NCBI RefSeq assembly: GCF_000316625.1
Contig: NC_019676.1
Span: 3,428,501 to 3,492,500 of the forward strand
Direction of reading: 5' to 3'
Origin: Nostoc sp. PCC 7107
Lineage (GTDB): Bacteria > Cyanobacteriota > Cyanobacteriia > Cyanobacteriales > Nostocaceae
DNA length: 64,000 nt
The notes under the pieces are model-generated. The model was given only the letters and a program-made list of their open reading frames with translations, did not search any database and had not been told where the DNA came from. Made by a program: the position numbers and the translations under genes. This document shows, one piece after another, positions 56,406 to 58,867 of this stretch; positions within the stretch are counted from its first letter, which is position 1, and each line of letters opens with the position of its first letter.

Positions 56406-56476
56406 TCCACCAGGGAGGTACTGCCCCTCCTATAACTGTGTTATCAGCACAGCGCCTCACTTTTCGGCTTCAAGTG
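56406..56476 (-). tRNA. tRNA-Ile(GAT)-like with altered elbow
   Basis: Anticodon stem CTGTG/CACAG with loop CTGATAA (GAT). Acceptor CCACTTG/CTGGTGG, A73. T-loop is GGCAGTA instead of TTCxAxT and the D-loop lacks the GG pair (AAAAGTGA); A8 replaces U8. Possibly a divergent functional tRNA or a decaying one. Confidence 0.7.
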
Positions 56477-56481
56477 GAAGG

Positions 56482-56564
56482 CGGAAGATGGAGGAATCGA
56501 ACCCCTAGGTATTGCCCTACCCCGGTTTTCAAGACCGGTTGCCAGCCATTTAGCGGCATCTTCC
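56482..56564 (-). tRNA. tRNA-Ser(TGA)
   Basis: Class II tRNA: anticodon stem CCGGT/ACCGG, loop CTTGAAA, long variable arm (GGTAGGGCAATACC), T-loop TTCGATT, G73. Confidence 0.95.
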
Positions 56565-56571
56565 ATTTAGG

Positions 56572-56646
56572 GGTGTCTGACGAGACTCGAACTCGCTATT
56601 ACTGGTTCCACAAACCAGCGCCTCGACCAATTTGGCTTCAGACACC
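56572..56646 (-). tRNA. tRNA-His(GTG)
   Basis: Loop TTGTGGA, acceptor GTGTCTG/CAGACAC with an extra 5' G facing C73 (the tRNA-His hallmark), T-loop TTCGAGT. Confidence 0.95.
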
Positions 56647-56651
56647 ATCAG

Positions 56652-56725
56652 TGGAATCAATGGGAATTGAACCCATAACCTCCTGCTTGCAAGGCAGGCG
56701 CTCTAGCCATTTGAGCTATGACCCC
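56652..56725 (-). tRNA. tRNA-Ala(TGC)
   Basis: Loop CTTGCAA, stem CCTGC/GCAGG, T-loop TTCAATT. Acceptor GGGGTCA pairs through two G-T wobbles; no G3-U70, the usual alanine identity pair, at first sight (G3-T70 is present on inspection: GGG...TTCC). Confidence 0.92.
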
Positions 56726-56792
56726 ATGAAGAAAATAAAAAGTGTAAAGTAAAAAGTAAAAAGAAATACTTTTGCCTTTTGACTTATTCAGG

Positions 56793-56866
56793 CGAGAGTG
56801 GTAGGACTCAGACCTACAACCTTCGAGTTAGAAGCTCGATGCTCTCTTCGATTGAGCTACACTCCC
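56793..56866 (-). tRNA. tRNA-Arg(TCT) with compensated elbow
   Basis: Loop CTTCTAA, stem TCGAG/CTCGA, acceptor GGGAGTG/CACTCTC, G73. D-loop AATCGAAGA has A19 instead of G19 and the T-loop TCTGAGT has C55, T56 instead of T55, C56, so the 19-56 pair changes from G-C to A-U. Confidence 0.9.
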
Positions 56867-56875
56867 AATGATTGG

Positions 56876-56947
56876 TAGTCCTGGCAGGAATCGAACCCGC
56901 AACTTATTGCTTGTAAGGCAATTGCTCTACCGTTGAACTACAGGACT
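56876..56947 (-). tRNA. tRNA-Val(TAC)
   Basis: Loop CTTACAA, stem ATTGC/GCAAT, acceptor AGTCCTG/CAGGACT, A73, T-loop TTCGATT, genomic CCA after A73. Confidence 0.94.
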
Positions 56948-56952
56948 ACGCA

Positions 56953-57023
56953 AGCGATCGACGAGACTCGAACTCGTACCGTGAGTTTGGAAGACTCTTA
57001 TGCTGCCGTTACACCACGATCGC
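56953..57023 (-). tRNA. tRNA-Gly(TCC)
   Basis: Loop CTTCCAA, acceptor GCGATCG/CGATCGC (a HIP1-like palindrome), T73, T-loop TTCGAGT. Confidence 0.93.
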
Positions 57024-57035
57024 ATCGCATTCTGA

Positions 57036-57107
57036 AGCTGGTGACAGGAATTGAACCTGCAACCTACTGATTACAAGTCAGTTGCTCTGCCAATTGAGCT
57101 ACACCAG
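57036..57107 (-). tRNA. tRNA-Thr(TGT)
   Basis: Loop CTTGTAA, stem ACTGA/TCAGT, acceptor GCTGGTG/CACCAGC, T-loop TTCAATT. Confidence 0.95.
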
Positions 57108-57116
57108 CACTTGTTA

Positions 57117-57177
57117 AAAAGTAAAAAGATTTTCTTTTTCTTTACTTTTGCCTTTTAACTTTTAACTTTTGCCTTAT
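57117..57177. repeat. STRR block inside the tRNA array
   Basis: AAAAAGTAAAAAG, then heptamers of the TTTTAAC/TTTTGCC type, between tRNA-Thr and the first tRNA-Met. Confidence 0.6.
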
Positions 57178-57182
57178 TTGGT

Positions 57183-57254
57183 GACGGGGGCAGGAGTTGC
57201 ACCTGCTGATATGAGGCTTATGAGACCTCTAAGCCACTCTTGCTCCATCCCCGC
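57183..57254 (-). tRNA. tRNA-Met(CAT)-like, degenerate
   Basis: Loop CTCATAA, stem GAGGT/GCCTC. T-loop is TGCAACT and the D-loop (AAGAGTG) has AG instead of GG; acceptor pairing is imperfect. The GGAGCA segment recalls an initiator but the anticodon stem lacks three G-C pairs. Ends are approximate. Confidence 0.7.
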
Positions 57255-57264
57255 ATTTCACCAA

Positions 57265-57338
57265 TGCCCCTGACTGGATTTGAACCAGCAACCTCTTCGT
57301 TCTAAGCGAAGCGCCTCTTCCGGTTGGGCTACAAGGGC
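57265..57338 (-). tRNA. tRNA-Leu(TAG) with short variable loop
   Basis: Acceptor GCCCTTG/CAGGGGC, A73, loop CTTAGAA, stem CTTCG/CGAAG, variable region of 5-6 nt, T-loop TTCAAAT. A normal bacterial tRNA-Leu is class II with a long variable arm; this is about 74 nt. Confidence 0.9.
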
Positions 57339-57353
57339 ATACTCTGATATTGG

Positions 57354-57427
57354 TACTCCCGACAGGAGTCGAACCTGCAAAAAACTAGATCCTCGGTCTA
57401 GTGCGTCTTCCGTTCCGCCACGGGAGC
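57354..57427 (-). tRNA. tRNA-Leu(GAG) with short variable loop
   Basis: Loop CCGAGGA, stem CTAGA/TCTAG, variable TTTTTT, T-loop TTCGACT, A73 and genomic CCA. D-arm GCGGAACGGAAGACGC is Leu-like. Confidence 0.9.
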
Positions 57428-57431
57428 TTAG

Positions 57432-57505
57432 TACCCCTGACAGGATTTGAACCTGTAAAATCTGGACTCTGATTCCAGCACGTATGCCAGTTCCGTCACA
57501 GGGGA
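57432..57505 (-). tRNA. tRNA-Leu(CAG) with short variable loop
   Basis: Loop ATCAGAG, stem CTGGA/TCCAG, variable ATTTT, T-loop TTCAAAT, A73. 1-72 is a T-T mismatch. Confidence 0.88.
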
Positions 57506-57825: not shown

Positions 57826-57828
57826 TTA

Positions 57829-57901
57829 TTGCCAGGGCAGGGTTTGAACCTGCAACCTCATCGTTCAGAGCGATGCGACTTACCAATTCGTCTACCCGGC
57901 A
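57829..57901 (-). tRNA. tRNA-Gln(CTG)
   Basis: Loop CTCTGAA, stem CATCG/CGATG, acceptor TGCCGGG/CCTGGCA with weak T1-A72 typical of Gln, A73. A CTG anticodon is additional to the usual TTG set. Confidence 0.92.
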
Positions 57902-57909
57902 ATGAATGG

Positions 57910-57981
57910 CTGCCTCAGTAGGACTTGAACCTACAACCTCGCGGTTAACAGCCGCTTGCTCTGCCATTGAGCTATGAGGCA
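57910..57981 (-). tRNA. tRNA-Asn(GTT)
   Basis: Loop CTGTTAA, acceptor TGCCTCA/TGAGGCA, G73, genomic CCA, T-loop TTCAAGT. Confidence 0.95.
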
Positions 57982-57987
57982 ACGTAG

Positions 57988-58062
57988 CCCCCCAGGTCGG
58001 AATCGAACCGACGACCTCCTGTTCTTCAGACAGGCGCTACTACCAACTGAGCTACCAGGGGA
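57988..58062 (-). tRNA. tRNA-Phe(GAA)
   Basis: Loop CTGAAGA, stem CCTGT/ACAGG, T-loop TTCGATT; position 37 is G and the acceptor has one mismatch. Confidence 0.88.
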
Positions 58063-58067
58063 TAGAA

Positions 58068-58137
58068 AGGAGAGATGGGTAATTACCCCGTGGACTGGTT
58101 TAATTCAACTTGAATCAGCCACTCCACCACCTCTCCT
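58068..58137 (-). tRNA. tRNA-like element, no readable anticodon
   Basis: Serine-type acceptor ends (GGAGAGG / TCTCTCC) in correct spacing with the array, but no 7-nt anticodon loop and no TTC T-loop. The middle folds into a nested hairpin (GTGGA...TCCAC, TTCAA...TTGAA) and the T-arm position holds the palindrome GGGTAATTACCC. Confidence 0.5.
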
Positions 58138-58143
58138 ATGTAA

Positions 58144-58218
58144 CGAGAACGGAGGGATTTGAACCCCCAAGTCTTCAGTTTCGTAGACTGAGATGTTATC
58201 CAGTTACACCACGCTCTC
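58144..58218 (-). tRNA. tRNA-Arg(ACG)
   Basis: Loop CTACGAA, acceptor GAGAGCG/CGTTCTC, G73, T-loop TTCAAAT. A34 would be edited to inosine by TadA. Confidence 0.94.
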
Positions 58219-58222
58219 AAGG

Positions 58223-58312
58223 CGGAGAGAGAGGGATTTGAACCCCCGACGAGTATTAACTACCCGTTTCCTCTTAGCAGGAGGATGCTTTGAGCCACTC
58301 AGCCACCTCTCC
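58223..58312 (-). tRNA. tRNA-Ser(GCT)
   Basis: Class II, 90 nt: loop CTGCTAA, long variable arm (ACGGGTAGTTAATACTCGT), T-loop TTCAAAT, G73. Confidence 0.96.
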
Positions 58313-58316
58313 ACAA

Positions 58317-58399
58317 TGGGTCGAGCAGGATTTGAACCTGCGAACAAAATAGAACAGTTTTACAGACTGTCGCCTTTAACCAGACTCGGCCATCGACCC
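58317..58399 (-). tRNA. tRNA-Tyr(GTA)
   Basis: Class II as expected for bacterial Tyr: loop CTGTAAA, stem ACAGT/ACTGT, acceptor GGGTCGA/TCGACCC, A73. Confidence 0.96.
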
Positions 58400-58403
58400 A
58401 TAA

Positions 58404-58475
58404 TTCCCCCGACGAGAATTGAACTCGCATCTCCGCTTTGAAAGAGCAGTGACTTAACCGTTCGTCCACGGGGGC
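58404..58475 (-). tRNA. tRNA-Glu(TTC)
   Basis: Loop CTTTCAA, acceptor GCCCCCG/CGGGGGA, T-loop TTCAATT, D-loop with GG. Same D-arm type as tRNA-Glu(CTC) at 58794. Confidence 0.92.
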
Positions 58476-58558
58476 AAGAGAATTTTAGATTTTAAATTTT
58501 GGATTTTAGATTAAAAACTCAATCTAAAATCGGCAATCCAAAATCCAAAATTATGTGA

Positions 58559-58630
58559 CGCAGGGACTAGGATTTGAACCTAGAACATCGGATTTGGAAT
58601 CACGAGGTGTTGCCGTTACACCATCCCTGC
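58559..58630 (-). tRNA. tRNA-Trp(CCA), anticodon stem poorly paired
   Basis: Acceptor GCAGGGA/TCCCTGC, G73, loop TTCCAAA best read as CCA, T-loop TTCAAAT. The anticodon stem shows several mismatches; TCC (Gly) is the alternative reading. Confidence 0.7.
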
Positions 58631-58632
58631 AT

Positions 58633-58705
58633 TAGCAGTGGCGGGATTTGCACCCACATCAACCAGGGTATGAACCTGGTGCTTTGCTAGTTAAGCTACA
58701 CTGCA
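58633..58705 (-). tRNA. tRNA-Met(CAT) with altered elbow
   Basis: Loop TTCATAC, stem CCAGG/CCTGG, A73. T-loop TGCAAAT (G55) and D-loop AACTAGCA (A18). 1-72 is mismatched. A CAT anticodon could also be Ile2 if lysidine-modified. Confidence 0.82.
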
Positions 58706-58714
58706 ACGAACCAA

Positions 58715-58787
58715 AGGCTGAGGTGAGAATTGAACTCACGATGTCGGTTTTGCAGACCAATGCCTTCAACCACTTGGCTACTCAGCC
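58715..58787 (-). tRNA. tRNA-Cys(GCA)
   Basis: Loop CTGCAAA, stem TTGGT/ACCGA, acceptor GGCTGAG/CTCAGCC, T-loop TTCAATT. Confidence 0.95.
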
Positions 58788-58793
58788 GTTTGG

Positions 58794-58867
58794 GAGCCTT
58801 GACGGGAGTTGCACCCGCTTCTCTTTGCTTGAGAGGCAAAGCGACTTATCTAGTCGTCCACAAGGCT
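58794..58867 (-). tRNA. tRNA-Glu(CTC) with altered elbow
   Basis: Loop CTCTCAA, stem TTTGC/GCAAA, acceptor AGCCTTG/CAAGGCT, C73, genomic CCA. T-loop TGCAACT (G55) and D-loop GACTAGATAA (A18), compared with the normal tRNA-Glu(TTC) in the same array. Confidence 0.88.

Follow-up and report, generated by a model that had tools for sequence, protein, structure and literature searches.

The contact between G18 of the D-loop and pseudouridine 55 of the T-loop is taught as near-universal in tRNA and is relied on by tRNA finders, and the outer face of the elbow, at the 19-56 pair, is read by RNase P, the L1 stalk and ribosomal protein L5. The canonical elbow is built from G18-pseudouridine 55 and G19-C56 (PMC4810234). 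Natural exceptions at other tertiary pairs have been described in eukaryotic tRNA-Ala, which possesses unusual 15/48 and 54/58 pairs that are reported to be absent from bacteria, as is the A54-A58 pair (PMC7566577). Long supplementary arrays of tRNA genes are represented by the trn operon of Anabaena sp. PCC 7120, which lies on the delta plasmid, contains 26 tRNA genes and is repressed by TrcR (PMC10272220). Here, a tRNA array of this kind is described from Nostoc sp. PCC 7107, within a stretch of 64,000 nucleotides that is referred to as the window. Five tRNAs of the array lack the canonical G18-U55 combination: four carry A18 and G55, a combination referred to below as the swap, and tRNA-Arg(TCT) carries G18 and C55.

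Swapped tRNAs resemble canonical tRNAs in their cloverleaf, their Watson-Crick 19-56 pair and their standard loop sizes, but differ in that 18-55 is A-G, which makes pseudouridine impossible at position 55. As in eukaryotic tRNA-Ala, conserved tertiary pairs of a natural tRNA have been replaced in a coupled manner, although the eukaryotic replacements lie at other positions (PMC7566577). In related sequences, changes at 18 and 55 are coupled and have arisen independently in several isoacceptors, and the cloverleaves remain intact. These features are very probably best explained by compensatory evolution towards an alternative elbow that works, in most cases by way of an A18-U55 intermediate.

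Elbow residues of the array tRNAs

The sequence-only reading had assigned A18 and G55 to tRNA-Ile(GAT), two tRNA-Met genes and tRNA-Glu(CTC), and these residues were confirmed by position in all four (Table 1). The two tRNA-Met(CAT) genes are designated Met_a and Met_b. For tRNA-Arg(TCT), the predicted A19-U56 pair and C55 are present, but C55 is not accompanied by a matching change at position 18. The Watson-Crick 19-56 pair is retained as G-C in the four swapped tRNAs and as A-U in tRNA-Arg(TCT), and paired cloverleaf stems are present, with a U6-U67 mismatch in the window copy of the Ile(GAT)-like tRNA. As also anticipated, all remaining ARAGORN-called members of the array possess GG in the D-loop and TTC in the T-loop. 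The swap recurs in orthologues of Met_a and Met_b in related arrays. Neither the Ile(GAT)-like tRNA nor Met_b was called by ARAGORN at its default setting or matched by the Rfam tRNA model at E<1, probably because tRNA finders rely on the G18-pseudouridine 55 contact.

Outside the array, tRNAs of the same genome were sampled as fragments around most RF00005 matches, with one or two weak matches left out, and 48 of the 49 tRNAs called by ARAGORN are GG/TTC. The sole non-standard member is tRNA-Ser(TGA) in locus L158, which likewise carries A18 and G55. This tRNA (G000:C1:5939280-5939353) has the anticodon TGA without a long variable arm, and look-alikes in the Nostoc loci L369 and L371 have the anticodons AGT and CTA. 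Two further elements of the array are irregular in other respects. A Trp-like tRNA at 58557-58631 (-) has an eight-base anticodon loop, read as the anticodon UCCA, and recurs nearly identically in at least 12 related loci; a degenerate tRNA-like hairpin at 58068-58139 (-) folds strongly (z -5.2) and is kept in seven related loci.

Covariation of positions 18 and 55 in related arrays

The window and 80 fetched stretches with related arrays yielded 1,602 distinct tRNA sequences, called by ARAGORN at the default or 85% threshold on the majority strand of each stretch, a few matches outside the array proper being included. Positions 18/55 are G/U in 1,509 of these, A/G in 69 and A/U in 16. No secure G18/G55 was found among the 1,602; three nominal cases have the D-loops AATTCGTTTA or AATCGTA and are best read as C18-G19. 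The association between 18 and 55 is extreme (Fisher p about 3e-101), as calculated across related arrays with kinship ignored. On a FastTree tree built with positions 18, 19, 55 and 56 masked, parsimony placed 41 changes at position 18 and 30 at position 55; on supported branches, 7.3 independent pairs were concordant and 0.0 discordant (median p 0.016). Covariation in homologous arrays, which had been suggested as a check, is thus evident, and the search for D- and T-loop changes arising independently gave the opposite outcome, A18/U55 being a minority class.

Swapped isoacceptors comprise Glu CTC, Met a, Met b, Gln CTG, Tyr, Thr, Leu GAG and one Arg, and the swap has arisen in at least seven isoacceptors. 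Glu(CTC) is the commonest in other arrays, with 22 distinct swapped sequences. For 58 of the 69 swapped tRNAs, a standard tRNA of the same isoacceptor is a closer match than any swapped tRNA of a different one, and most swaps are therefore not accounted for by copying from one isoacceptor to another; those that depart from this rule are chiefly Glu CTC and Gln CTG. Stems are equally well preserved in the two classes of array tRNA, with 0.40 mismatches over 17 pairs in swapped tRNAs and 0.45 in standard ones (p 0.65). Replacements of G/C at 19/56 are A/U in nine cases, C/G in seven and U/G in one, the A19/U56 type of tRNA-Arg(TCT) recurring in other array tRNAs. Several tRNAs with the amber anticodon CTA (L052, L057, L062, L091 and L108) have C19-G56 in place of G19-C56.

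Distribution in viruses and other bacterial phyla

Viral contigs were scanned with exact patterns sharing one D- and T-arm context, which gave at least 120 stretches for A18/G55, 80 for A18/U55 and 11 for G18/G55. Among 1,027 distinct non-bait viral tRNAs, 837 are G/U, 121-125 are A/G, four are A/U and none is G/G; because the contigs were selected for containing a bait, these frequencies are too high, whereas the linkage is unaffected. Applied to genomes, this pattern picks out SAR11 tRNA-Phe, together with Planctomycetota and Verrucomicrobiota arrays in which most or nearly all tRNAs are converted. Among converted viral and bacterial arrays, A18/G55 is found in 18/18 tRNAs of L215, 15/15 of L263, 18/18 of L272, 24/25 of L418 and 17/18 of L433. 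Genes for Ro60/TROVE proteins adjoin the swapped arrays L272, L403 and L435 and the unswapped array L307, with the Pfam TROVE domain checked for L403 and L272. TROVE was therefore dropped as a specific partner of swapped arrays, given its presence beside L307.

The near-complete SAR11 single-cell genome G392 yielded 32 distinct tRNAs, and its only tRNA-Phe found is A18/G55, although a second copy is possible in a genome of this type. None of the 43 SAR11 genomes that carry the swap (5 + 38, G391 being among the genomes tested) gave a TruB_N match, compared with 17 of the 37 that lack it (Fisher 1.6e-7); the carriers form one clade and many are incomplete, and so the independent events may be few. 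TruB was likewise not detected in the planctomycetes G393, G394, G447 and G448. The arrays of G393 and G394 are almost fully swapped, and the non-array tRNAs sampled from G393 are standard G18-U55. Elsewhere TruB is usual: the window genome has it, as do most of the remaining carriers that were tested, among them cyanobacteria, Verrucomicrobiota, Elusimicrobia, Firmicutes and further groups.

The Ile(GAT)-like tRNA and variants at 54/58

BLAST detected the Ile(GAT)-like tRNA in about 60 related loci, where the T-loop GGCAGTA with A18 is nearly invariant and the acceptor, D and anticodon stems show compensated changes. A relative with a TAC anticodon occurs in L062 and L082. The sequence-only reading was right about A18 and G55 in this tRNA but incomplete, as positions 54 and 58 are changed too and U8 is lacking. 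In SAR11 genome G392, tRNA-Thr(GGT) has the T-loop GTCAGTA, and thus G54-G58 also occurs in a tRNA that is the only one found for its anticodon. In suppressor tRNAs selected from randomized D- and T-loops in the Steinberg laboratory, G54-G58 is said to be functional; that was a laboratory selection, whereas the Ile(GAT)-like tRNA and SAR11 tRNA-Thr(GGT) carry it naturally. A tRNA-Val(GAC) in G392 combines A18-G55 with A54-U58. The A54-A58 combination is present in 17 distinct array tRNAs (L039-L118), many of them Asp and Phe with ATC T-loops.

Operon setting

The array is a TrcR-type trn operon, constituting a second tRNA set. Like that of Anabaena sp. PCC 7120, it is a long array that duplicates chromosomal tRNAs, with gene order conserved, and has the operator TGTAGTAT, the sequence covered by TrcR (PMC10272220), over a TAGTAT -10 box, together with a trcR candidate bearing its own motif. 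It differs in lying on a single 6.33 Mb contig with the trcR candidate 2 kb upstream, and in that two of its members escape standard detection. Of 71 related arrays, 67 have TGTAGTAT in the 900 bp upstream, and the sequence is absent from every array body. The published 18-base TrcR motif, ATACTACACTTGTATTAC, is found letter-exact at about 61268-61285, 50 bp upstream of the ATG of the trcR candidate. The 64-aa frame between the promoter and the first tRNA has tblastn matches in 22 other loci, the full-length ones roughly 42-59% identical, with an internal stop in L047, and is possibly a leader peptide of the operon. By analogy with Anabaena, the operon may be inducible by translational stress.

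Table 1. Features of the tRNA array and its upstream region, in window positions
Feature	Position	Strand	Description
tRNA array	56309..58945	-	27 ARAGORN-called tRNAs plus Ile-like and Met_b; gene order kept in related loci
Ile(GAT)-like tRNA	56406..56477	-	A18 56461, G19 56460, G55 56424, C56 56423; T-loop GGCAGTA (G54, G55, C56, A57, G58); no U8
tRNA-Arg(TCT)	56791..56866	-	G18 56849, A19 56848, C55 56811, U56 56810
tRNA-Met(CAT) 'b' (Met_b)	57179..57255	-	A18 57238, G55 57200; ARAGORN at lowered threshold
tRNA-Met(CAT) 'a' (Met_a)	58632..58706	-	A18 58688, G55 58651; ARAGORN
tRNA-Glu(CTC)	58791..58867	-	A18 58851, G55 58812; ARAGORN
64-aa reading frame	59180..59374	-	Between TrcR promoter and first tRNA
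Promoter TTGACA-18-TAGTAT	59420..59449	-	TrcR operator TGTAGTAT twice, 59438-59431 and 59427-59420, overlapping the -10 box
trcR candidate	61318..61653	+	111-aa ribbon-helix-helix protein; weak RHH_4 match, below Pfam cut-off

Discussion

Homologous arrays, viral contigs and other phyla all lend strong support to the proposal that the coordinated change reflects compensatory evolution. A18 and G55 would form a contact equivalent to the canonical one, with the donor and acceptor sides exchanged, and in G55-C56-R57-A58 a GNRA-like turn could replace the UNR turn. A change from G18 to A18, with A18-U55 tolerated, would usually come first, followed by U55 to G55, and the outcome would be a working elbow without pseudouridine at 55 or 2'-O-methyl-G at 18. 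Conservation suggests that such an elbow can work, given that SAR11 genome G392 yielded no tRNA-Phe other than the swapped one and that stem mismatches are not in excess, and the TrcR operator and conserved stems of the array argue against dead genes. The spread of the swap would most likely stem from weaker dependence on those modifications or from weaker constraint on supplementary tRNAs.

Several points weigh against this interpretation. Residue numbering at 18/19 comes from a heuristic caller applied to ARAGORN output, the Fisher values count related sequences as separate, and the A18-G55 contact itself is deduced from sequence comparison. The absence of U8 means that the elbow change in the Ile(GAT)-like tRNA is not isolated. 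TruB is kept by most carriers other than SAR11 and the two planctomycetes with converted arrays. Finally, 30 of the 45 affected cyanobacterial arrays have a single swapped isoacceptor, a pattern that drift with compensation explains better than would selection acting on a trait of the operon.

It is possible, though doubtful, that the swap was selected for independence from modification, with A18-G55 holding the elbow without pseudouridine 55 and being favoured in the absence of TruB or when tRNAs are produced in bursts, as in induced arrays and viral infection. The restriction of the SAR11 swap to genomes without detectable TruB, the four planctomycetes in which TruB went undetected, two of them with almost fully swapped arrays, and the frequency of swaps in viral and array tRNAs, set against their absence from 48 of 49 other tRNAs of the genome, are all consistent with such selection. 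However, the SAR11 carriers are a single clade with many incomplete single-cell genomes, the non-array tRNAs sampled from the TruB-less planctomycete G393 remain G18-U55, and the many phyla that carry both TruB and the swap indicate that loss of TruB is not required. Missing TruB was accordingly dropped as a general cause, although its loss may ease the swap. Protection of supplementary tRNAs from a nuclease, toxin or host factor that reads the elbow is unlikely. Whole arrays are converted, TrcR also represses the RNA repair ligase gene rtcB in Anabaena (PMC10272220) and Ro60/TROVE genes adjoin three swapped arrays, but no attacking factor was identified, TROVE adjoins an unswapped array as well, and the few swapped tRNAs in each cyanobacterial array would confer little protection. 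The solvent-exposed 19-56 pair is, moreover, unaltered in most swapped tRNAs. Of the resistance suggested by the sequence-only reading, the loss of modification follows from chemistry: G55 cannot become pseudouridine, so that modification by TruB is lost, as is 2'-O-methyl-G18. G19-C56 is kept in four of the five tRNAs, and general evasion of elbow recognition is not indicated.

Decay, in which degenerating array tRNAs accumulate changes in conserved loops, is highly improbable. Degenerate members do exist in the array, namely the hairpin and the Trp-like gene with its eight-base anticodon loop, and planctomycete tRNA clusters have been described as degenerate (PMC4807772). Decay would not couple the loop changes, however, and swapped stems are as intact as standard ones, while the only tRNA-Phe found in a SAR11 genome is A18/G55; the coupling, the stems and the viral pattern together led to rejection of pseudogene decay as a general account. 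Compensatory evolution to an alternative elbow remains the preferred explanation. A more tentative and rather unlikely extension is that A18-G55 represents a second, pseudouridine-independent elbow class that mobile and inducible arrays adopt as a set, thereby escaping TruB or being shielded from elbow-reading factors.

A literature search for A18 with G55 returned no description, the Anabaena trn papers in NAR 2021 and FEMS 2012 lying outside the comparison. Deletion of trcR in Anabaena leads to a reported loss of translational fidelity (PMC10272220), for which elbow-altered tRNAs would be one possible cause. The recurrence of A18-G55, including in almost fully converted arrays and SAR11 tRNA-Phe, suggests that tRNA clusters labelled degenerate may function after all. 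The near-universal G18-pseudouridine 55 contact thus appears to have a working and recurrent alternative in viruses, in whole arrays and in SAR11 tRNA-Phe, and swapped tRNAs offer a natural system in which to ask what pseudouridine 55 does.

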